A stretch of 64,000 bases of DNA from assembly GCA_030429625.1 (NCBI GenBank), contig JAUIFA010000002.1:124001-188000 (forward strand), given 5' to 3'. The notes beneath the pieces were generated by a model. It was given only the letters and a program-made list of their open reading frames with translations. It had not been told where the DNA came from and searched no databases. Made by a program: the position numbers and the translations under genes. Source of the DNA: Alphaproteobacteria bacterium (lineage in GTDB: Bacteria > Pseudomonadota > Alphaproteobacteria > Rickettsiales > UBA8987). Within the stretch, counting starts at the first letter, position 1. Every line of letters begins with the position of its first letter. Below are positions 26,303-38,886 of this stretch, piece by piece.

Positions 26303-27036
26303 TGTCGTTTGAAATTCTCCAAACTCCGTCCCCTAATTTTAATGACAGGGTTAATGGTGCGCCCATTGACATGCTGGTGTTGCATTATACAGGCATGAAA
26401 ACCGCACAAGAGGCACTTGATCGTATGCGTGATGAGGATTCGGAAGTCAGTGCCCATTATATGGTGGATGAAAAGGGTAAGATTTATCAGTTGGTCGATG
26501 AGAAAAAACGCGCATGGCATGCGGGCATCAGCCATTGGCGTGGGAGAAATCAACTTAATGATTATTCCATCGGGGTAGAAATTGTTAATCCCGGGCATGA
26601 ATTTGGCTACGTGCCTTTCCCAGAAAATCAAATGTATAGTGTAGTGGATTTATGTGTGGATATGGTCAAGCGCTATAAGATTAAGCCACATAATGTGGTT
26701 GGCCATTCGGACATTGCACCGGACAGAAAGCAGGATCCGGGGGAATTGTTTGATTGGAAATCTCTGGCAAAACAGGGGGTTGGTCTGTGGCCGGATAAGG
26801 ATTATGAATATCAGGTGGAGGCGGTACTGGAGATTGGTAAATCAAATAAGCAGGTGGAAAAACTCCAGCGTGACTTAGGTAAACTCGGCTATAAAATTAC
26901 CGCTGATGGTTATTTTGGGGTGCAGACGTCCTATGTTGTTGAGGCCTTTCAGCGTCATTTTGCACAAGCAAGGTTAGACGGTGCGTGGGACGGCAATATG
27001 CAATACATACTAAACAATCTGATCAATAAATGCTAA
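26302..27036 (+). CDS. N-acetylmuramoyl-L-alanine amidase (Amidase_2) with peptidoglycan-binding domain
   Basis: 244 residues. The N-terminal Amidase_2 domain holds the zinc ligands in VLHYTGMKT and GHSDIAPDRKQDPG, plus SAHYMVDEKGKIYQLVDEKKRAWHAG and IGVEIVNPGHEFGY. A peptidoglycan-binding domain at about residues 175-240 includes QVEKLQRDLGKLGYKITADGYFGVQTSYVVEAFQRHF. This matches AmiD/AmpD-like enzymes that cut the stem peptide from MurNAc or anhydro-MurNAc. No signal peptide is visible, which favours a cytosolic, muropeptide-recycling role. The ATG overlaps the etfA stop by one base; its 3' end overlaps the rhodanese gene by 4 bases. Confidence 0.9.
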   Translation: MSFEILQTPSPNFNDRVNGAPIDMLVLHYTGMKTAQEALDRMRDEDSEVSAHYMVDEKGKIYQLVDEKKRAWHAGISHWRGRNQLNDYSIGVEIVNPGHEFGYVPFPENQMYSVVDLCVDMVKRYKIKPHNVVGHSDIAPDRKQDPGELFDWKSLAKQGVGLWPDKDYEYQVEAVLEIGKSNKQVEKLQRDLGKLGYKITADGYFGVQTSYVVEAFQRHFAQARLDGAWDGNMQYILNNLINKC

Positions 27037-27554
27037 CGATTCCAAGGGGCTTTGGCCAACACGCGCGCCATAGCGCATATGCCGGTTAAGCCGGCAAACG
27101 ATAACCCGATGCCGATTAATCCGGTTAGATAAAAGAAATTGCTGTCCACTGTAAAACCAAGAATACAGGACAGTATGATTAAGATGCCGATGGTGAGCTG
27201 AACCTGTTGATCCAAAGGCAGCATAGAAGAGGATTTGACTGTAGGTAATTTAGCCTCTTTCCAGCCGTTGATGCCGCCTTCGAGCAATAATAACTCAAAA
27301 TCAGTGTCTATATTTTCCAACAATTGGCAGGCGGATTTGGCTCTGCCGCCCTTTAGGCACTGTATGATTACTTTTTTGCCTTTTGTCTCGTAACTGTTTA
27401 ACACTTTCGGGCTAAAAGAAGACAGCGGATGATTGGTCGCCTGCTCGATATGCTCGGCTCTAAATTCGCTAGGTTCGCGCACATCTATAATGATAGCCTG
27501 CCCGTTTTTTAATAAGGGCGCAGCGTTTTCCGCCGTAATAATCGTAAAGCTCAT
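27033..27554 (-). CDS. Rhodanese-like sulfurtransferase with C-terminal membrane domain
   Basis: 173 residues from ATG 27554 (MSFTIITAENAAPLL). The rhodanese domain spans about residues 5-105 with catalytic Cys in the loop IIQCLKGGRAKSAC. The C-terminal 65 residues form two hydrophobic segments (LTIGILIILSCILGFTV and FFYLTGLIGIGLSFAGLTGICAMARVLAKAPWN), the DUF2892 type. It probably moves sulfane sulfur at the membrane. The arsR-type gene lies 10 bases upstream on the same strand, forming an apparent persulfide-response operon. Confidence 0.88.
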   Translation of the reverse strand: MSFTIITAENAAPLLKNGQAIIIDVREPSEFRAEHIEQATNHPLSSFSPKVLNSYETKGKKVIIQCLKGGRAKSACQLLENIDTDFELLLLEGGINGWKEAKLPTVKSSSMLPLDQQVQLTIGILIILSCILGFTVDSNFFYLTGLIGIGLSFAGLTGICAMARVLAKAPWNR

Positions 27555-27564
27555 AATGGTCTCT

Positions 27565-27861
27565 CTAATTGCAATATTCTTTGTATAACAACTGCATAAC
27601 ATCTTTAGCTAGCGGGTGAGTTAGGCGATATATGATCTTCACCCCGTCGCGTTCGGACGTCAGTATCCCGTCCTTTTTCATTTTTATAAGATGCTGCGAA
27701 AGGGCGGATTGTGACAGCGGCAACGCATCTTCAATTTCGCCAACCGAAAGTCGCCCCTGCGCCAATAGACAAAGGATCATTAATCTGTTAGGATTAGCCA
27801 GACTACGTAAGAACTTCGCCGCGCCGTCCGCATTATTTTTTATGTCGTCTTTTATTCTCAT
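27565..27861 (-). CDS. ArsR-family repressor, persulfide-sensor (BigR/SqrR) type
   Basis: 98 residues from ATG 27861. The winged helix domain is complete: FLRSLANPNRLMILCLLAQGRLSVGEIEDALPLSQSALSQHLIKMKKDGILTSERDGVKIIYRL. Two Cys lie where the BigR/SqrR group has its redox pair: one in LMILCLL on helix 2 and one near the C-terminus (LLYKEYCN). That group senses persulfide or sulfane sulfur by forming a Cys-Cys tetrasulfide. The adjacent rhodanese gene supports this. The CMD-family gene is divergent, with a strong promoter and inverted repeat between them. Confidence 0.85.
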   Translation of the reverse strand: MRIKDDIKNNADGAAKFLRSLANPNRLMILCLLAQGRLSVGEIEDALPLSQSALSQHLIKMKKDGILTSERDGVKIIYRLTHPLAKDVMQLLYKEYCN

Positions 27862-27862
27862 G

Positions 27863-27891
27863 TTGACAATTATATAAGATAATTCTAATAT
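27863..27891 (+). promoter_or_regulatory. Strong promoter with inverted-repeat operator
   Basis: TTGACA (27863-27868) and TAATAT (27886-27891) are 17 bases apart and face the gene at 27925. Between them lies a perfect inverted repeat AATTAT-N5-ATAATT (27868-27884). An operator in the spacer is the usual arrangement for ArsR-type repression; the divergent arsR-like gene starts at 27861, so one site could control both directions. Confidence 0.7.
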
Positions 27892-27924
27892 AAGCAAGTA
27901 CTAATATTAACGAGTGAGGAAAAA

Positions 27925-28269
27925 ATGACAAAAGACTATAAAGAATTAACCGCTTCCATTTCCGGTAATATCGGCGAATTGCGCAAATCCATTCCCGACG
28001 TGATGAAGGGCTTTTCGGCCATGGCTGGTGCTGCAACGGCAGACGGTGCGTTGGACAAAAAGACTAAAGAATTTATCGCTATGGGCATTGGTGTGGCCGC
28101 ACGGTGTGATGGGTGTATTGGTTTCCACTCCCAAGCGTTGGCCAAACTGGGCGCTACGGACGAAGAATTCAACGAAGTGTTGGCCATGGCTATTTACATG
28201 GGCGGCGGCCCGTCTTTGATGTATGCGGCCGATGCGCTGGACGCTTTTAAACAGGCCAAAGAAAAATAG
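27925..28269 (+). CDS. Carboxymuconolactone decarboxylase family (AhpD-like) protein
   Basis: 114 residues. The CMD core contains the redox motif CDGC in GIGVAARCDGCIGFHSQALAKLGATDEEFNEVLAMAIYMGGGPSLMYAADALDAF, which matches AhpD-like proteins with a CxxC pair and nearby His. Such proteins act as peroxidase or thiol partners. Controlled by the promoter/operator shared with the ArsR-type gene, it probably belongs to a reactive-sulfur or peroxide response together with the rhodanese. Confidence 0.88.
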   Translation: MTKDYKELTASISGNIGELRKSIPDVMKGFSAMAGAATADGALDKKTKEFIAMGIGVAARCDGCIGFHSQALAKLGATDEEFNEVLAMAIYMGGGPSLMYAADALDAFKQAKEK

Positions 28270-31461: not shown

Positions 31462-34400
31462 TTATGGCTTTATACTGACTTTTTGCAGTTCAAGAATCTC
31501 TGGTGTTGGTAAATCCGGATAGTGTGCCTGTACCGCATCATTAACCCATTTGGGGAAAATCCTGAATAATAACCGAGCTTCTATAGTGTGGGCTTCTATA
31601 TTCTTAGGCAGGATAAAGATTTCATCACGATGTGACTTGGCGGGAATGCGCGTATCTTTGATCAGCTTTGCGTTACGCCAGAAGGCAACCCCAACCGGCT
31701 TGCCCTCCTTATCGGCAAAGACTTTGTGGAACATGCGCGCGTCTTTGGGCACAACGCCAGTCTCACTAGGCTGCCCGCTTTGATAGAGGATGTTGCCCTG
31801 TGCGTCCTTGGCAATCACGTGCAGCCAGAGCTGGCGGAAATCGGCCACGCCGGTGGGTAGGTGATGCCCCGCACCAATGTTGGTAACCCGCACGGTAAGC
31901 TGATTGCCCTGCATTGGTAAAAGTTCCAATTTGGCAGCAGATTTAAGCAATTGGATGCTCATATTCGCCAGCTTTTTATTGCGTAAACCCACCAGATGGT
32001 GATTCGCACCGGTAAATTGGTGGGTACGGACATTGGCTTTTTTCTTCCCGCCATCGGTAGAGAATCCGGGAATATCTGTGCCGATATTTTCGATGTTTTT
32101 GTGCATATGGCAGTCCAAACAATTCAGTTTTTCTTCTGGTTTTTGCGGGTTGTTATAAGGAGAATCTTCCCATTCTTTATAGGTATTGACAACCACCGCA
32201 CCAGTGCCAGGAGCAAACTCATTATGACAGGTAGAGCAATATCGAGAGCTATTATAAAAATCCTGACTGTATGAGTCAGCATGTTGCTCCGGCTTGGCGT
32301 TGATTTGTTTTTCGCCCAACCAGTGCAGCAGGCCGTTAAGGCTCTCTTCGCCCATATAGGTAGGGCGACCGGCAATATCTAATGTGAAACTAGCATTGCC
32401 GCCAGATGTCGTCGACATGGCGTTTTCTATAGAAGTCATACGATGACACATTAAACAGGTTGTGCCTTCGTCTATGTCGGGGCGTTTTTCTTCCAGTGCG
32501 ATAAACAGGCTGTGCCCGCCTTTTTCAAACATATGGCCATTGTCAGGGGTTTTTCTGCGGCCGGAAAGCATGGCTTGTGGGTTGTGACAGCCCATACACC
32601 ATTTGCGGAACGGTTCGCCCTCCATGCTGGCGGCGATGTCTTCCACCACGTTGTAATACGGGTTGGAATCGGCCATCAGATGGTGGTTGGAGTCGACCCA
32701 TTGATCAAAAATCTCGCTGTGGCACGAGGCGCATTTGGCCGAATTGACCCATTTATGTTCGGGGATTTGTCCCTTATCTTCAGTACGTATCCAGCTTGAG
32801 GTCTGAGGCAAATTCCCACGAGAGGTGATGAATTTTGCCAGATGCTGCATCATTTGTTTGGCTGCTTTATTGGGGGCATCAGGGTTGGTGGAGGTAGGGT
32901 CGTTCTTCTCATCCGCACCCATACCGCCTTGCGTGTCTTTGATTATTCTCACCAGATCACCAGCATTGCCATCCGCAATTAATTTCTTTAAATCAGCGTG
33001 GCCAATGATGTTATTTTCCATCTTATCATGTTGGAAATCTTCAAAGAGGTAACCGGCAGTAAAATTAAATCCGTCCACGTGGCAACTGGCGCAGCTCATC
33101 CAATAATCCCCAGCCATGGGGTGATCGGGAATATCATCACGATTGCCACTGTTGAACAGGCGCATGCCGGCACGCAGCTCAGGAGCGATCGGATCCTGTT
33201 CCACCAGCTTGGCAAAATTGGCGGATGCTAGCTTGACCTTAGCAAAACTACCTTTACCGCGTGAGAGTTTGGCAATGTCCAAGCTCATGGCGTTTTGTAC
33301 AAAAATATCTTCACCATCAATCACCAGCCCACGAGGGTTATCTCCGGGAACATGACGGAAAATCTGCGTGGCCTTTGCGCCTCCTTGATTTTGTTTTTTA
33401 GCGTGGCGGTTGCGTTGATTCTTTGGCACACTACGGCGGGAGAGATCAAACACCATCAAGTCCTCACTCGCAGCCAGCGTCACATAGAGTTTTTTGCCAT
33501 CGGCAGAAAATTCTGCGTCATGTGGGTTGGAAACAATACGAGTTTTGGTACCGTTTTCAAGGATGTTGATTTGTTCAAAAAGCTGTTTGCGCCGTTCGGC
33601 GAATTCATGCTCCTTGCCCTTGGCTAGAGACAATACCGACACCGCCGGGAAGACGGTGGATTGGAACTGAAAGGGGTGGTCAAAATTCCACAGCACATGC
33701 GGAAGCCAAGCCTCTTTTTCGTTAGGGCTGATGGCAATGTCGTCCAACAGGCGCGGCAGACCTTGGGAAACAAATTCGTCCGCATTCTGAGTTACCTCCA
33801 GCGTGATAATTTTTGGTGCGGTGAGGGGAAGTGTGGTGGTATCAAAAATGGAAACTTTGCCGATCATGGAGTGCGTCACAAGCAATCTTCCATCGCTGAG
33901 TAGTGCCAGCCCGCGCGGTGTGTTCTCGGTGGCGATGGAGTGGAGAATCTGCCCACGTTCATTGATGGCTAGCAAGCGATGGTCTTCAAACAAAGTGATC
34001 CAGAAGAGTTGATTCTTTGCATCATAAGCTACGCCAAAAGGGCGCTTACCCACCTCAATAGAAGTAATTTTTTCAAAGTCATTCAAATCAATCAGATGTA
34101 CTTTCCCGTCAGTGTAATCACTTGCCATCAGGCGGTGATGCTCTTCGTCCAAAGCGATACGGCGTATGTCATTCCCAATGTGAAGTTCTTTTTCTAACAC
34201 ACTATTTTCTTTGTTTATTTTCGAAATTGAACCGGCCTCAAAATTTGCGCTGTAGAGGGTTTTTCCATCTTTGGAAAGCACAAAGGATGAACTTTCTTCA
34301 GCGGCAAAAACATGTGCACCGAAAAATACTAATATCACCGCAACGGCAAAACCAATAACCCATTTATTTAGCTTTAGCATGGAATATTTCATGGCGTGGT

Positions 34401-34830
34401 ATAACACTAAAACGGTCAGTGGTATGGCAACAATCAAATGTGTCCAATAGGATATTTGACCAGAGAGATCACCACCACGATTGCCAACAAAGGTGAGGTA
34501 AATACCGCTGACAATCATCAATAAAATGGCATAGTCCAATATTTTTCCTGTGATGCGTAAGGGCTGTTTGCTGCTGTTATTATAGAGGGTTCTGTGAGAC
34601 AGCCAGAAGGGGATAACAAAAATAGAAAACAGAAATAAGGCAGCAATAAAATGGACAAACAGACTGAAGCGAACAAGCGTCCAATCAAGGGTGAAACCAT
34701 TCCATAAGATAAGTCCGCTAAAGGCTAGAAAATACAGGGTAAATTCCGCTGATTTTGAGCGGTATCCCAGCCTTATCCACCAAGGCATTGCGCGCAACAG
34801 TTCTTCGTGCTTTGATAATTTTCTACCCAT
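31462..34830 (-). CDS. Membrane-anchored hexahaem c-type cytochrome with beta-propeller
   Basis: 1122 residues in three parts. Residues about 25-185 form five membrane helices with His in or beside them (LFVHFIAAL, YWTHLIVAI, LYHAMKY), like a b-type haem module. Residues about 190-530 look like a YVTN-type beta-propeller (SKDGKTLYSANFEAGSISKINKE; HNPHDAEFSADGKKLYVTLAASEDL-like blades). The C-terminal part holds six CxxCH haem sites near residues 579, 698, 745, 790, 865 and 904, then a beta-rich end. It probably passes electrons from the quinol pool to periplasmic haems. It is the third gene of an operon with a secreted protein and an outer-membrane barrel, under a Fur-box promoter. I know no named protein of this architecture. 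Confidence 0.85.
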   Translation of the reverse strand: MGRKLSKHEELLRAMPWWIRLGYRSKSAEFTLYFLAFSGLILWNGFTLDWTLVRFSLFVHFIAALFLFSIFVIPFWLSHRTLYNNSSKQPLRITGKILDYAILLMIVSGIYLTFVGNRGGDLSGQISYWTHLIVAIPLTVLVLYHAMKYSMLKLNKWVIGFAVAVILVFFGAHVFAAEESSSFVLSKDGKTLYSANFEAGSISKINKENSVLEKELHIGNDIRRIALDEEHHRLMASDYTDGKVHLIDLNDFEKITSIEVGKRPFGVAYDAKNQLFWITLFEDHRLLAINERGQILHSIATENTPRGLALLSDGRLLVTHSMIGKVSIFDTTTLPLTAPKIITLEVTQNADEFVSQGLPRLLDDIAISPNEKEAWLPHVLWNFDHPFQFQSTVFPAVSVLSLAKGKEHEFAERRKQLFEQINILENGTKTRIVSNPHDAEFSADGKKLYVTLAASEDLMVFDLSRRSVPKNQRNRHAKKQNQGGAKATQIFRHVPGDNPRGLVIDGEDIFVQNAMSLDIAKLSRGKGSFAKVKLASANFAKLVEQDPIAPELRAGMRLFNSGNRDDIPDHPMAGDYWMSCASCHVDGFNFTAGYLFEDFQHDKMENNIIGHADLKKLIADGNAGDLVRIIKDTQGGMGADEKNDPTSTNPDAPNKAAKQMMQHLAKFITSRGNLPQTSSWIRTEDKGQIPEHKWVNSAKCASCHSEIFDQWVDSNHHLMADSNPYYNVVEDIAASMEGEPFRKWCMGCHNPQAMLSGRRKTPDNGHMFEKGGHSLFIALEEKRPDIDEGTTCLMCHRMTSIENAMSTTSGGNASFTLDIAGRPTYMGEESLNGLLHWLGEKQINAKPEQHADSYSQDFYNSSRYCSTCHNEFAPGTGAVVVNTYKEWEDSPYNNPQKPEEKLNCLDCHMHKNIENIGTDIPGFSTDGGKKKANVRTHQFTGANHHLVGLRNKKLANMSIQLLKSAAKLELLPMQGNQLTVRVTNIGAGHHLPTGVADFRQLWLHVIAKDAQGNILYQSGQPSETGVVPKDARMFHKVFADKEGKPVGVAFWRNAKLIKDTRIPAKSHRDEIFILPKNIEAHTIEARLLFRIFPKWVNDAVQAHYPDLPTPEILELQKVSIKP

Positions 34831-34850
34831 TCTTTATCCCAACGCAAAAT

Positions 34851-34873
34851 CCAGAGGAGTATAACTCCTCTGG
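34851..34873 (-). promoter_or_regulatory. Perfect intercistronic hairpin
   Basis: CCAGAGGAGT (34851-34860) and ACTCCTCTGG (34864-34873) form a 10-base-pair stem with a 3-base loop, between the secreted-protein gene and the cytochrome gene. On the minus strand it is followed by ATTTTG, a weak T run. It may be a partial terminator or a processing/stability element that sets cytochrome expression below that of the first two genes. Confidence 0.65.
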
Positions 34874-34904
34874 ATGGAATTGTCTGCAATTTATTGTGAT
34901 AATG

Positions 34905-36917
34905 TTACTGTGTGATTCGGACTTTTGCCGCCATCACCGGAGCAAAGCCGTAAGACGCTCCAGCTCGGCTGATTCTAGCAACATTGTCACCATCACTGTC
35001 AATCACATCATCACTTATTATATTTTCACCCGTGTCGGTTGGCCATTCTGCCAATTGCATACCTTCGCCCACTTTATGACCGTTAATCACGGTACGGAAC
35101 CAATCTTTGTAACGGGAGGTGAGGTGTTGCAAGGTTAAAAGTGGTTCAGATTCTTTTTCTGTGTTAGGAAGAACCGTCATTAACGAACGCATGCCAGCGC
35201 TAACGGCCGCGACTGTCCAAGGAGTATAAATACCGTCTTTGTTGGCATAAACGCCGGTTTGTGGGTCAAACAAATTTTTCTCCACCGCCACAAAAAGAGT
35301 CCGTGCCGCTTTGCGATATTTCATATCGCCGGTGGCCTTAAAGGCAGAGGAAAGCCCATGAATAACTGCAAACTGCGTGCCCACAGAATTGCCCGCAAGG
35401 ATGCCTTTACCAATCTCATATTTGTTGGCAACCAAACCGTTTTTACCAATCAGATTCGCTAAAATAAAATCGGCTTGTTGGCGGATCACATCAAGTGCTT
35501 TTTTGCCACGTTCGGTATTAAGGCTTTCACCCGAATCGGCTGAGGCATAGCCCACCGGAAGTGCGTCTTGCGAACGTTGATAAATGGACAGGGCATGCAG
35601 CGCATAGGCTGCGTCATAGGCGGTAACGATGTTGCCCTTTTTGCCGTTGGTATAGACATCGACAAAGGTGCCTTTTTCTTTATTAAAGTGCAGGCTGATA
35701 AGGTTCTTAAATTGGGCGTTGGTCAATGCTGATGCTAGCGAGAAGGGGTCGTCTGATTCAATATCATTTTCCAGATAGTCATCAATATTTTCAGCCGGTG
35801 CCTTAGGGAATGGTGCACCGTCATAGACTGCCAAGAAGGCTGGATTTTGATTGGTATTGGCTGTGCGTTGGTCTGTCATGGCATAGAATTCACTTAGTGG
35901 CCACAAGAGAAGCCATTTGTCCCGCAAGGAGGAGGTGCTATCGGTAACCTTCAACGCTCCAATGCCTTTAAAACCATTGTGCACTTTTTCGCTGATTTTA
36001 ATGCTGTGCGGTAACCAGATTGGCCCTTCTTTGGGAGAATAGTTGGTAATGATAGGGGTTCCCAACTCTTTACCGTTATAGCCCAACTTTGTTTTAATGG
36101 TTAGAAGTTTGTCCCAAGTTAATTCAGCAAGTAACATACCATTGACCCCATCGGCCGCAGAGACTCCCAACGCATGGATGCCGTCTTGGTCTTGCGTGGT
36201 AGATTCCGCTTCAACTTCCTCGTCAGATTCTATCACGTGCATGCCACCAAGGAAATCCTGTGTCCACATCACGTCTTTAAGCATTTGACCGCCAAAAGCT
36301 GCTGGATTAAAATGTTTGTCCATGCCGGATTCTTCCCATGCTAGTGTGGTAAAATCACCAACATAGGCGGGGGTAATGGCTTTAATTTCTTTGTCATCTA
36401 TGGTAAGGGTTTCTTCTCCGTTTTTTGTTACGTTTACCTTTTGAGCAAACTCTGGCGTACCAGAAACATAAGGCACGCCCACCGGATACATATTTTTAGG
36501 CAGATCATTACTATCAAAACCTACTGATCGTGCCAGCTCAGAAAAACGCTGTTGTAAAGATTCCGATGTGCCACCACGTTGTTTGTTTGCTAGCCCATTG
36601 GCAAGATGTGGCCCCATGCGGGACTGGAAATTCAGCGCGTACATGGCTTCTTCTGAATATTCGTAGCTCTCAATGCCCGTGACATAATCAAACGCGGTTG
36701 GGACATCAATGGCATTAGGATCTAACATGTCGAGATCCAATCCTAGTGTTTCTGCCAGAGGTTCGCCGGAAAGTTCAAATTCGGTATAAGCCAGCATAGC
36801 CCCCGCTGTATCAAAAGAATTGTCGATGACGATAACTTTTGTATCTACTGCCAGCGCAGAATATGCTGTAAAAGAAAGGGCAATTGGAAGGGCAAGTGTT
36901 GATAATTTTTTGATCAT
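34905..36917 (-). CDS. Large secreted protein of unknown function in the cytochrome operon
   Basis: 670 residues, starting behind AGGAGAATAAC. Signal peptide: MIKKLSTLALPIALSFTAYSALA, giving a periplasmic or exported protein. The C-terminal 300 residues show helical-pair periodicity (AYDAAYALHALSIYQRS; SVGTQFAVIHGLSSAFKATGDMKYRKAARTLFVAVEKNLFD; GIYTPWTVAAVSAGMRSLM), as in alpha/alpha-toroid folds of glycoside-acting enzymes, but I cannot assign a catalytic site. Acidic clusters (ESDEEVEAESTTQDQDG; DVIDSDGDN) could bind metal. No Cys is apparent, so it carries no c-haem. It sits 9 bases after the porin-like gene. Confidence 0.75.
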   Translation of the reverse strand: MIKKLSTLALPIALSFTAYSALAVDTKVIVIDNSFDTAGAMLAYTEFELSGEPLAETLGLDLDMLDPNAIDVPTAFDYVTGIESYEYSEEAMYALNFQSRMGPHLANGLANKQRGGTSESLQQRFSELARSVGFDSNDLPKNMYPVGVPYVSGTPEFAQKVNVTKNGEETLTIDDKEIKAITPAYVGDFTTLAWEESGMDKHFNPAAFGGQMLKDVMWTQDFLGGMHVIESDEEVEAESTTQDQDGIHALGVSAADGVNGMLLAELTWDKLLTIKTKLGYNGKELGTPIITNYSPKEGPIWLPHSIKISEKVHNGFKGIGALKVTDSTSSLRDKWLLLWPLSEFYAMTDQRTANTNQNPAFLAVYDGAPFPKAPAENIDDYLENDIESDDPFSLASALTNAQFKNLISLHFNKEKGTFVDVYTNGKKGNIVTAYDAAYALHALSIYQRSQDALPVGYASADSGESLNTERGKKALDVIRQQADFILANLIGKNGLVANKYEIGKGILAGNSVGTQFAVIHGLSSAFKATGDMKYRKAARTLFVAVEKNLFDPQTGVYANKDGIYTPWTVAAVSAGMRSLMTVLPNTEKESEPLLTLQHLTSRYKDWFRTVINGHKVGEGMQLAEWPTDTGENIISDDVIDSDGDNVARISRAGASYGFAPVMAAKVRITQ

Positions 36918-36926
36918 GTTATTCTC

Positions 36927-38027
36927 CTAAAATTCTTTTGTGTAGCGGAACAGAAAGCCCAATATGTTGGAATTTACACCTGCCTCATCGGTTGTTTTAT
37001 ACCCGGCTTCGGCGGTAAGTCCATTGTTAAAATCATAACCCGTGCTGACTTGGAACAAACTGTCGTCAAAATCGGCAATAGTACCGACCTCATCAATGTT
37101 GCGTGCGGTATAGCTGAAGGTCACGTTCCAGTTTTCCTGATAGATTGCCTTGGTACCAATGGTAACATATTGGTGATCTCTGTCGGCAATGCCTTCAAAA
37201 TTTTCGATGGTGACATATTCAACAATATTTTCCAACGCCATATCTTCAGACACAGGGATGGTATAATGTAAGCCGAGTACCATGCCTTTTTCATCATCAA
37301 ATCCAGCACCTATATCGGCATCGCCTTGTGCCAAGTGACGCACAGCAATATGAGAGTTTAAGTCTTCAATGCCGGCAACATTTGTGCTGTCTAAGGAGAT
37401 GGCAAAAGAGGATAAATCTTCAGTATTGCTGGCGCCGCCGTCGCTCAGGGTGGTTCTGGGTCGACTGGTAAGGGTAGATTTGCTCAAGAAACTGGTATCA
37501 GCAAAAAACGTGCTGGCAGAAAGGGTGCTTTCACTTTTTTCTCCGGTGATGAAGCTGTAAGATGCTCCTACCCCAAATTTTTCAGTGATTTCATAATCTT
37601 CGGCAAAATCTTCACCCCAAATTCCGCGTGCATCCCACGCTGTACCAAAGGCTGGGTTAAATTTTCCTGCCCAAAAGGCATAGTCATTATGTGCAAAATT
37701 GATTTTAACTTCTTCAGCAAACAGGCCGTTGCTTTGGAAAAAGATATCGTCGTCGATGTTTTTGGTGGCTGCCTGATCAAAAGGCTCTAACACAAGTACA
37801 CCATCGATAAAGATATTCTCGTTCAAAGTGATGGTTGGAGCAACTTCTGTACGTAGAAATATATTATTATGTTCGGTAGTGCTATCGTCCGAATCGACCG
37901 TGTTTTCGTTTTGTATCTCCACAACAATTTCTCCCGAGACATTTGGGTATTGGGCATGGGCCGGTAAGGCAGTAGTTGCACTTAGTGCTAAGATAGAAAA
38001 ACTAAATAACGCTTTTTTAGGTGGCAT
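36927..38027 (-). CDS. Porin-like outer-membrane beta-barrel protein
   Basis: 366 residues from ATG 38027, which has GGAG 8 bases upstream; the ATG at 38033 is too close to it. Signal peptide ends LPAHA. The mature chain alternates short beta strands with aromatic ends and Asp/Asn-rich loops (FWAGKFNPAFGTAWDARGIWGEDFAEDYEITEKFGVGASYSF; GYDFNNGLTAEAGYKT) and ends in Phe (LGFLFRYTKEF), the BamA-recognition signal. The size fits a barrel of about 16 strands, smaller than MtrB-type electron-conduit porins. First gene of the operon with the secreted protein and hexahaem cytochrome; the promoter carries a Fur box. Confidence 0.85.
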   Translation of the reverse strand: MPPKKALFSFSILALSATTALPAHAQYPNVSGEIVVEIQNENTVDSDDSTTEHNNIFLRTEVAPTITLNENIFIDGVLVLEPFDQAATKNIDDDIFFQSNGLFAEEVKINFAHNDYAFWAGKFNPAFGTAWDARGIWGEDFAEDYEITEKFGVGASYSFITGEKSESTLSASTFFADTSFLSKSTLTSRPRTTLSDGGASNTEDLSSFAISLDSTNVAGIEDLNSHIAVRHLAQGDADIGAGFDDEKGMVLGLHYTIPVSEDMALENIVEYVTIENFEGIADRDHQYVTIGTKAIYQENWNVTFSYTARNIDEVGTIADFDDSLFQVSTGYDFNNGLTAEAGYKTTDEAGVNSNILGFLFRYTKEF

Positions 38028-38049
38028 AAACATAACTCCGTAATATAAT

Positions 38050-38132
38050 GTTAATGAGAATCATTATTAAATAATGGAATGGAGTATATGTGTCCAGAAA
38101 TATATGTCAACTAAAAATAAGAATTATTCTTA
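38050..38132 (-). promoter_or_regulatory. Iron-regulated promoter: Fur box, sigma70 elements and second palindrome
   Basis: On the minus strand TTGACA (38110-38105) and TATACT (38088-38083) are 16 bases apart. The 19-mer at 38050-38068, GTTAATGAGAATCATTATT as read on +, matches the E. coli Fur consensus at 16 of 19 positions and covers the region just after the expected start. Upstream of the -35, 38118-38132 is a perfect palindrome TAAGAAT-T-ATTCTTA, which resembles both a 7-1-7 Fur site and the Irr/ICE motif TTAGAA-N3-TTCTAA with one mismatch per arm. Confidence 0.8.
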
Positions 38133-38150: not shown

Positions 38151-38849
38151 TTATTGATAGAGTAGATAAAATGGTGAACAGACTTCAGATGTATTAGAAA
38201 CGTCGTAAGTATCCGTATCAATAGCAGCCAAAGTATGATTATTGGCGCAAGCTTTTCCTCCGCTATATCCAAAAATCTTGCCTGTGCCTGGCATGCCATT
38301 GTCCAGCTTTTTATCAATATATTTTGTATCTTCAGGTGTTAATACATTGTAGCTTGGGCCGCTTCTGGCCAAATAAATATATAGGCTTTTTTGATCGTTC
38401 AATGCGGCAACATCCAAAGAAAACATAAAGGTTCTGGCTACATAAGTGGGAGAAAAGGTGACCCCCTCCATGGCAGTTTTTGGCCGACTAGTGCCAATAA
38501 CAATGTTGCCTTCCGTTTCGTCGTACGTGCCCTCAATCAACCCGGCAAGAGCCAAGTGATCCCAGAATTGTGTAGTTTCTCCAGGGGTGGTAATGGTGTG
38601 GCTGCCGTCGCCTTCTTCTGTTTGGCCAGGCCAATAATCCGAGGCTTCGTCAAAATCACCAGGAATGGCATCGTATTTGGCTTGGAACAGGTTAAAGGCG
38701 GTTTCGTATTTGACAAAATCATTCATGATGCTGGTTAGGCGTGACGTGTGGATCATTTCTCGACCAGAGACAATGCCTGCTGTAATCAGGCTAATAATAA
38801 CCAAAACAATGGAGAGTTCTACTAATGTAAAGCCAGATGTTTTTCCCAT
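38151..38849 (-). CDS. Type IV pilin-like protein (prepilin N-terminal motif)
   Basis: 232 residues from ATG 38849, preceded by AAAGGG. The leader MGKTSG is followed by the cleavage/methylation signature FTLVELSIVLVIISLITAGIVSG with Glu at +5. The rest is a globular pseudopilin-like domain (FQAKYDAIPGDFDEASDYWPGQ) with two Cys near the C-terminus (GKACANN; SEVCSPF). No pilus assembly gene lies in the window. It could be a minor pilin or a pseudopilin of a type II system. Promoter TTGACT-17-TATGTT lies upstream. Confidence 0.88.
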   Translation of the reverse strand: MGKTSGFTLVELSIVLVIISLITAGIVSGREMIHTSRLTSIMNDFVKYETAFNLFQAKYDAIPGDFDEASDYWPGQTEEGDGSHTITTPGETTQFWDHLALAGLIEGTYDETEGNIVIGTSRPKTAMEGVTFSPTYVARTFMFSLDVAALNDQKSLYIYLARSGPSYNVLTPEDTKYIDKKLDNGMPGTGKIFGYSGGKACANNHTLAAIDTDTYDVSNTSEVCSPFYLLYQ

Positions 38850-38886
38850 ATTACCCTTTTCTGTCAAAACATTCATTTGCTATGAT

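Follow-up and report, generated by a model that had tools for sequence, protein, structure and literature searches.

Bacterial iron uptake through FTR1-type permeases is carried out by systems such as EfeUOB, FtrABCD and FetMP/P19, in which periplasmic iron-handling proteins are grouped around an FTR1/EfeU permease in gene sets under iron control (for the fet cluster of C. jejuni, see PMC10783030). These systems are described as using ferrous iron with an oxidase (PMC11966278, PMC9174327). The introduction of PMC11966278 calls the ferrous oxidase of FtrABCD unknown and names copper-loaded FtrA as a possible one, while the paper itself studies Fe(II) oxidation by FtrB. Porin-cytochrome pairs such as MtrCAB, on the other hand, export electrons. 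Here we analyzed a locus that lies in a 64,000-nucleotide stretch (the window) of contig JAUIFA010000002.1 of an Alphaproteobacteria bacterium, and pairs an undescribed secreted protein with a membrane protein predicted to carry eight haems, in a gene set that is probably switched on when iron is scarce. Relatives in many marine bacteria often place the same pair beside an iron importer, which suggests an unrecognised way of loading iron with the help of the respiratory chain.

Gene content and promoter of the locus

A first-pass annotation had described three adjacent minus-strand genes, for a barrel with a signal peptide ending in Phe, a 670-residue secreted protein of no recognised family and a 1122-residue membrane cytochrome with six CxxCH sites, behind a promoter with a 16/19 match to the Fur consensus. 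Our analysis confirmed this description. The features are as follows:

38083..38110 (-), sigma-70-type promoter TTGACA-16-TATACT
38050..38068 (strand not assigned), Fur-box-like 19-mer, 16/19, starting 15 nt downstream of the -10
36927..38033 (-), POR, 368-aa outer-membrane porin-like barrel with signal peptide and C-terminal Phe
34905..36917 (-), SEC, 670-aa secreted protein without a family, predicted alpha/alpha toroid
34849..34875 (-), 12-bp hairpin in the gap between SEC and CYT
31462..34830 (-), CYT, 1122-aa protein, likely inner-membrane di-haem b domain, YVTN propeller, one CCP-like c-haem and penta-haem c domain
34303..34830 (-), CYT residues 1-176, helical (membrane) domain with His60, 79, 131 and 145
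31462..33093 (-), CYT residues 580-1122, region with the six CxxCH sites

The promoter is an exact match, with 0.03 matches expected in shuffled sequences, and is the best-scoring promoter-like site between 31000 and 38300. The Fur-like 19-mer (GTTAATGAGAATCATTATT) has three mismatches to the consensus. Two sites of this quality occur in the window against 0.03 expected, and the other one (26794-26812) lies inside a gene. In the 1.84 Mb genome, which holds FUR-family genes, only four distinct places reach 16/19 and none does so for the reversed pattern; the site described here is the only one of the four outside an open reading frame.

POR matches the Pfam family Porin_4 (29.7 bits against a cut-off of 27), and its four Pfam matches up to E 1 are Porin_4, OMP_b-brl, DUF2490 and DUF6666. 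SEC matches no Pfam family up to E 1 and only two weak NCBIfam models below threshold (EpiA at E 0.022), and a PDB search with the SEC profile gave only E 0.013 and weaker. Its AlphaFold2 model (pLDDT 88) is that of an alpha/alpha toroid, the best structural match being a mannose isomerase (Z 21.4, rmsd 2.7, 337 residues aligned, 12% identity). SEC has invariant acidic residues (Glu46, 48, 52, 56, 86, 89 and 90).

CYT has exactly six CxxCH, at residues 580, 700, 745, 792, 865 and 904, and its predicted model shows long helices in the first 170 residues, whose membrane nature is read from the sequence. Each of the four His of the helical domain is conserved in 16 of 16 fused homologues aligned, a likely di-haem b site, and six CxxCH are present in 28 of 28 aligned homologues. 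The helical domain is a separate gene (CytTM below) in Photobacterium, Moritella, Vibrio and others. A structure comparison of CYT by VIA-align was filled by propellers, so that its haem and membrane parts were barely tested there, but the C-terminal haem part matched the penta-haem cytochrome c552 5ze8. CCP_MauG reached only E 0.64, over residues 571-596, which leaves a single first-domain-like stretch in CYT, the five other CxxCH lying in the penta-haem region.

Conservation in relatives and linkage to FTR1

We found 152 stretches encoding relatives of SEC in the genome collection, of which the best 80 were analyzed further. The SEC and CYT genes form a conserved pair: among the 48 non-Aeromonas loci with at least 7.8 kb of downstream flank, 45 hold both (31 of 32 when one locus per genus label is counted). 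CYT was out of reach in 28 loci, and in 9 of 9 genomes tested among these it was found elsewhere; one of the nine (locus L050) is the second SEC copy of a genome whose other copy (L038) lies beside CYT, and another (L053) gave a partial gene on a short contig. Co-occurrence of the homologues and similarity to a characterised nitrite reductase had been set beforehand as checks on the first-pass interpretation, and neither came out against it. No curated nitrite-reductase model reached its cut-off: CYT scored 13.0 bits with NrfH (cut-off 134.2), and its homologue in locus L034 scored 19.9 with NrfH and 13.0 to 13.5 with NrfA-type models (cut-offs of 595 or more).

An FTR1 iron permease is encoded in 30 of the 48 loci (18 of 32 per genus label), mostly with short gaps or overlaps in seven loci examined, and carries two RExxE motifs. 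A deep-sea Photobacterium is an example with the full operon, and Terasakiella an example of the form without FTR1. In Aeromonas veronii a CytTM-CYT-FTR1-F5-F6-F4 operon stands apart from SEC, F5 being a flavoprotein, F4 a glycosyltransferase-like membrane protein and F6 a further gene product of that operon. However, the window operon has no FTR1: the single FTR1 gene of this genome is on another contig (C11), directly behind a cupredoxin gene, and no Fur-like box stands before it (best 12/19). Of 12 genomes, of unstated completeness, tested because FTR1 was missing from the SEC locus, 8 have no FTR1 at all and 4 have one elsewhere.

Fur-like boxes precede SEC more often than a reversed control. 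In 48 of 78 loci the site was in the top 5% of tiles of its own locus, against 9 of 78 for the reversed consensus; with one locus per genus-level label the figures were 21 of 35 and 4 of 35. Loci L059, L067 and L073 were left out of this count for lack of the anchor motif; their best sites in the 400 bases before SEC were 12, 11 and 11 of 19. The box is weak or absent in several genera, for example Pseudovibrio, Colwellia and Pseudoalteromonas. Hairpins after SEC also recur: in 35 of 51 loci where CYT or CytTM follows, the 110 nt after SEC carry one, against 5.8 expected. A Bacillota plasmid keeps SEC beside a propeller-dihaem relative of CYT, with Fur-like boxes of 14/19 and 15/19.

The porin, by contrast, appears to be optional. 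A crude test found a barrel beside SEC in 5 of 77 other loci, and different porins flank SEC in a few relatives; in locus L084 a porin 37% identical to POR lies divergently beside SEC.

Close relatives of this bacterium mostly lack the operon. In 54 other genomes of its own family and order we found no SEC and no CYT beyond one propeller-only match. Among 385 genomes drawn from the class, SEC was full-length in its own genome and one other, plus one partial match of 26%. Among 398 drawn from the phylum, at E up to 1e-20, CYT was full-length only in its own genome, plus two matches confined to the penta-haem part. The operon is thus rare near home and was probably gained or widely lost. In the SEC tree, from which locus L087 was left out, the window sequence falls with Alphaproteobacteria at 93% SH-aLRT but on a long branch. 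Locus L085 was left out of one alignment (A2) because of a stop codon.

Proposed function and alternative readings

The first-pass annotation had proposed that under iron starvation the organism builds an electron path from the quinol pool to the periplasm or cell surface, by analogy with MtrCAB and perhaps to reduce and take up ferric iron. This interpretation is partly supported. Fur-type control, a role in iron acquisition and a plausible electron path between quinone and periplasm are supported, and the link to iron acquisition is stronger than could be known from the window alone. The MtrCAB analogy is weakened, and the reduction of ferric iron remains undecided.

In the reading that we favour, with a confidence no better than even, POR-SEC-CYT is a Fur-repressed iron-acquisition module. 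SEC would be exported and bind iron in the periplasm or at the cell surface, and the recurrent hairpin after its gene suggests that it is made in excess of the membrane parts. CYT would be held in the inner membrane by the di-haem b domain and present a propeller and six c-haems to the periplasm, so that it could pass electrons between SEC-bound iron and the quinone pool. The most likely direction is ferroxidation, as a copper-free step for FTR1-type uptake: Fe(II) handled by SEC would be oxidised, the electrons would enter the quinone pool through the b-haems, and Fe(III) would be handed to an FTR1-type permease, which is in the same operon in many relatives and is encoded by a separate gene in this genome. 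The porin would let the iron source through the outer membrane. Our computations establish the gene set, the co-occurrence, the domain architecture, the conserved c-haem motifs and His, the Fur-like boxes and the FTR1 linkage, whereas the membrane topology, haem b binding, iron binding by SEC, electron exchange with quinone and its direction, the ferroxidase step in Fe(II)-dependent uptake, the hand-over to FTR1 and the iron-repressed expression itself are inferred.

The opposite direction, a ferric reductase module in which quinol reduces the b-haems and then the c-haems, which reduce ferric iron held by SEC for import as Fe(II), is possible but doubtful. A di-haem b membrane domain in front of periplasmic c-haems is a usual layout of quinol-oxidising proteins, and in the eight genomes without any FTR1 another importer must serve. 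However, 30 of 48 loci carry FTR1, whose studied relatives use an oxidase (PMC11966278), and searches of the window's genome for FeoB_C and Nramp, the only Fe(II) importers looked for, gave no match. No second cytochrome gene was seen among the ORFs of 90 aa or more around the operon.

A haem-rich protein is costly under iron starvation, a paradox already raised by the first-pass annotation; the favoured reading would explain part of it, since the haems would be a small investment in a loading machine. An Aeromonas envelope proteome reports seven c-type cytochromes going down in low iron (PMC4957856), none of which could be matched to CYT. A 72.17-kDa uncharacterised A. hydrophila protein that falls in low iron in the same study was considered as SEC; seven Aeromonas SEC proteins compute to 70.4 to 71.4 kDa with the likely starts, so it was not identified as SEC, nor is it excluded.

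Two further readings appear unlikely. The first is a protein-maturation pair, in which the CCP/MauG-like haem domain oxidises residues of SEC to build a metal site, as described for MbnH/MbnP and CorB/CorA in copper uptake. The Bacillota relative of CYT matches Lactonase, RoxA-like and CCP_MauG models above their cut-offs, SEC keeps invariant Trp and Tyr residues, and the two genes stay paired. However, in CYT the second haem domain of the peroxidase is replaced by a penta-haem domain, and this reading does not explain the four-His helical anchor. The second is glycan-linked iron scavenging, in which SEC acts on a sugar polymer or a glycosylated iron carrier that F5 and F4 make or modify. SEC has the predicted fold of sugar epimerases and glycosidases, F5 matches Amino_oxidase and GLF (UDP-galactopyranose-mutase-like) models, one of two F4 proteins scanned matches Glyco_transf_22 below its cut-off, and F5 and F4 occur in 37 and 38 of the 48 loci. 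Yet the identity of SEC to the solved toroids listed is low, the window operon has no F4 or F5, and a probe with F6 of locus L008 found nothing in this genome, in a search without a positive control.

A tentative extension of the favoured reading is that a copper-free, haem-based ferroxidase wired to the quinone pool drives FTR1-type import, together with a new family of secreted iron-handling toroid proteins. Because the electron sink would be the quinone pool and not O2 itself, such a system could work without oxygen and would join iron uptake to respiration, and the Bacillota form (SEC plus a propeller-dihaem protein) would be a minimal relative. The conserved, Fur-box-bearing operon in which FTR1 is joined to a multihaem electron-transfer protein gives a directly testable candidate for a different answer to the question of the FTR1 oxidase, with the quinone pool as electron sink, and points to a protein family, SEC, without Pfam or NCBIfam match above threshold. 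In a partial search of the literature (including PMC11966278, PMC9174327, PMC4957856, PMC5987420, PMC10783030 and PMC9012536, the last on another, unrelated Ftr1) no paper was seen to describe this gene set; PMC13186404, known from the search only, holds both EfeU and multiheme.

Comparison with described systems

A porin-cytochrome conduit like MtrCAB or Ext, exporting electrons to outside minerals, is very unlikely. A porin gene is the first gene of the window operon, and the haem part of CYT shows similarity below threshold to the electron-export cytochromes MtrC/MtrF (Mtrc-MtrF_II-IV, 27.6 bits against 30), OmcA/MtrC (25.5 against 209.3) and ExtKL (51.5 against 250). However, POR is a Porin_4-type barrel of 368 aa with no MtrB-type model among its matches, whereas MtrCAB has a large MtrB/PioB-type barrel. 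The ExtKL and MtrC/OmcA-type cytochromes are not known to be fused to a membrane domain and a propeller, and the periplasmic and surface cytochromes of MtrCAB lack an inner-membrane anchor, while the long hydrophobic N-terminal helices of CYT with their four invariant His speak for one.

The best-matching solved structure for the C-terminal haem part is the penta-haem cytochrome c552 of Thermochromatium tepidum (5ze8; Foldseek E 1.5e-12, 19% identity; phmmer E 4e-6 over residues 980-1075), on which the one literature search made listed no paper. 5ze8 is a 385-residue chain by itself, whereas in CYT the domain is fused behind a membrane domain, a propeller and a sixth haem. CYT also resembles YVTN-propeller/MauG-type dihaem proteins in having a propeller followed by a WMSCASCH haem domain, with 31% identity over 570 residues to such a protein on an Anoxybacillus plasmid, itself next to a SEC homologue; in CYT the second peroxidase haem domain is replaced by five haems and the helical four-His domain is added. 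SEC shares its predicted fold with N-acylglucosamine/cellobiose 2-epimerase and GH105/GH76 toroids (Z 17.9 to 21.4 among 50 matches), but with only 6 to 16% identity, and it is longer (670 residues).

As in EfeUOB, FtrABCD and FetMP/P19, an FTR1 permease sits in the same locus in many relatives, although in the window's genome it is unlinked and some genomes lack it. No cupredoxin, P19, imelysin (EfeO/M) or DyP peroxidase (EfeB) was recognised by Pfam or NCBIfam among the operon proteins scanned, POR, SEC and CYT included; in their place stand an unclassified, predicted toroid protein and a multihaem cytochrome with a four-His helical anchor.

The operon, its promoter region and the anatomy of its proteins

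The observation made in the first-pass annotation held: the three minus-strand genes, the promoter and the Fur-like 19-mer are real and lie where they had been placed. In the whole 1.84 Mb genome (99.7% complete) only four distinct places matched the Fur consensus at 16/19 or better, whereas none was found with the reversed pattern, and the site upstream of this operon is the only one of the four outside an open reading frame. The genome encodes a strong FUR-family match (140 bits) and a second, weaker one (57.5 bits). The window features considered in this part are the following:
38050-38068, Fur-like 19-mer
34849-34875, hairpin in the gap between the secreted protein gene (SEC) and the cytochrome gene (CYT)
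38151-38876, gene upstream of the operon with a type IV pilin-like N-terminal methylation motif and no visible link to the operon
27033-28269, apparent rhodanese-domain protein and ArsR-like regulator next to an AhpD-like small protein, named from inspection of the sequence only

The CYT model is of moderate confidence (pLDDT 78, pTM 0.68). Five helices predicted in residues 25-170 carry His60 and His79 on one helix and His131 and His145 on another, and each of these His residues is conserved in 16 of 16 fused homologues aligned. This is the pattern expected of a trans-membrane di-haem b domain, although membrane topology and haem binding are inferred. In Photobacterium, Moritella, Vibrio and others the helical domain is a separate gene, here called CytTM. 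Residues about 180-545 form a YVTN propeller in the model, the top structural match being hydrazine synthase beta 5c2v (Z 36.0, rmsd 2.5, 302 residues, 17% identity). A first haem site (CASCH at 580) follows and then five more, with the penta-haem cytochrome c552 5ze8 as the best-ranked cytochrome match (Foldseek E 1.5e-12; phmmer E 4e-6). The Pfam models Cytochrome_C7 and Cytochrome_C554 passed their cut-offs in this region, whereas the MtrC/MtrF, OmcA/MtrC and ExtKL models matched below theirs. All six CxxCH motifs are kept in 28 of 28 aligned homologues, together with five further invariant His (611, 716, 850, 937 and 989) in the haem region.

Concerning SEC, no Pfam family matched and sequence searches revealed no solved relative. 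However, its AlphaFold2 model is good (pLDDT 88, pTM 0.91) and shows a predicted alpha/alpha toroid like those of 2-epimerases, mannose isomerase and GH105/GH76 enzymes, with Z scores of 17.9 to 21.4 and identities of 6 to 16% in 50 matches. In 40 sequences 148 positions are at least 97% conserved and 28 of them are acidic, with an E86-Y-S-E89 motif and Glu46, 48, 52, 56 and 90 in the first helices. That these residues bind iron is a guess.

Gene neighbourhood in other genomes

One scan of a collection of 84,980 species genomes found 152 stretches encoding SEC relatives, of which the best 80 were kept. These come from Alphaproteobacteria, Gammaproteobacteria and Campylobacterota, and a more distant relative (43%) was found on a Bacillota plasmid. 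Of the 80 loci, 68 have at least 7.8 kb downstream of SEC, and 20 of these are from Aeromonas. The gene content of the other 48 is shown below; since some loci are cut, these counts may be low.

Genes found in the 48 non-Aeromonas loci with at least 7.8 kb downstream of SEC (in parentheses, one locus per genus label, of 32)
CYT: 45 (31)
FTR1 permease (F10): 30 (18)
F5, a flavoprotein: 37 (23)
F6, a small exported protein: 37 (23)
F4, a glycosyltransferase-like membrane protein: 38 (24)

Common gene orders are SEC-CYT-FTR1-F5-F6-F4 and SEC-CytTM-FTR1-F5-F6-F4-CYT, while in locus L018 FTR1-F5-F6-F4 come before SEC. Beyond the gap after SEC, the gaps in the seven loci laid out run from overlaps to 95 bases, apart from the turn to SEC and CYT in L018 (109 and 1161 bases). 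F10 is FTR1 by Pfam (151 bits against a cut-off of 25.3), and in 31 aligned copies REGLE and the R, E and E of a second RExxE are kept at 90% or more. In nine genomes where CYT was out of reach of SEC, CYT was found elsewhere in all nine, one of them partial and one beside a second SEC copy. In Aeromonas veronii CytTM, CYT, FTR1, F5, F6 and F4 follow each other. Two SEC copies occur in Oceanospirillales bacterium XeTr1 (loci L038 and L050), only one of them beside CYT and FTR1. On the large IncU plasmid pE31A of Aeromonas media (locus L106, 7935-9935) SEC stands without CYT nearby, near insertion sequences and transfer genes, and SEC is also present on other Aeromonas plasmids. The Bacillota version, on an Anoxybacillus amylolyticus plasmid (locus L105, 9007-13979), consists of a DUF2325 gene, a small gene, the SEC homologue (43%) and a propeller-dihaem protein, and lies close to menaquinone genes.

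Fur-like boxes and hairpins

We looked for Fur-like sites in 78 loci, including the window and leaving out three that lacked an anchor motif. The best match to the Fur consensus in the 280 bases around the SEC start was within the top 5% of tiles of the same locus in 48 loci, against 9 for the reversed consensus, and matches of 15/19 or better were found in 18 against 1. Taking one locus per genus label, the counts were 21 of 35 against 4 of 35. The window itself does not count as a hit in this analysis because its box lies before the porin gene. The only relative of the window's porin found among the loci (locus L084, 6663-7799) stands divergently beside SEC, with a 16/19 Fur-like site between them. 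On the Bacillota plasmid, sites of 15/19 and 14/19 precede the gene set, with Fur-like boxes before the first gene and before SEC.

A hairpin of at least 7 pairs occurs within 110 bases after SEC in 35 of 51 loci where CYT or CytTM comes next, against 5.8 expected from random stretches of the same loci and 2.6 in shuffles; with one locus per genus label it is 23 of 34 against 4.3. The hairpins differ in sequence. After F10, F5 and F6 the counts were 9 of 31 (4.2 expected), 7 of 38 (5.0) and 9 of 38 (5.0), respectively. Over 80 loci with the window, Aeromonas included, hairpins follow SEC in 61 against 11.8. Such hairpins suggest partial termination or protection of the mRNA after SEC, so that SEC would be made in excess, as is the case for periplasmic binding proteins.

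Putative role in iron acquisition and relation to known systems

The genome of the window has one FTR1 gene, directly behind a gene for a 108-aa cupredoxin on another contig (C11; locus L099, 8129-9299), probably a conventional FtrB-FtrC-like pair. No FeoB_C and no Nramp match was found in it, although both searches gave matches in 7 of 14 control genomes. So, among the importers looked for, the recognised candidate for SEC-CYT iron in this organism is an FTR1, in spite of the fact that the two sites are not linked and the FTR1 gene shows no Fur-like box (best site 12/19).

FTR1-type uptake is described as using Fe(II) with an oxidase (PMC11966278), and EfeU and Ftr1p belong to the oxidase-dependent transporters (PMC9174327). 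A permease of this kind in the same operon as a probably quinone-linked cytochrome points to oxidation of SEC-bound Fe(II) with electrons passed to the quinone pool. However, against a strict link stands a search of 14 genomes (that of the window, one with FTR1 in the locus and 12 without), in which 8 of the 12 have no FTR1 anywhere; there the pair may feed another importer or work as a reductase. We therefore consider the role in iron acquisition very likely, whereas the oxidative direction appears about as likely as not. The gene sets, their co-occurrence, the conserved residues, the Fur-like boxes and the linkage to FTR1 come from the analysis itself, while membrane topology, haem b binding, iron binding by SEC, iron-dependent expression, electron exchange with quinone, its direction and the delivery of iron to FTR1 are inferred. 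The interpretation given in the first-pass annotation, an electron path made under iron starvation and perhaps serving to reduce and take up ferric iron, was partly supported.

Among the papers listed by our literature searches, which were partial, none was seen to describe the SEC family, this helical/propeller/hexahaem architecture or its Fur-linked union with FTR1. The parts belong to known folds, and FTR1-coupled uptake is itself known.
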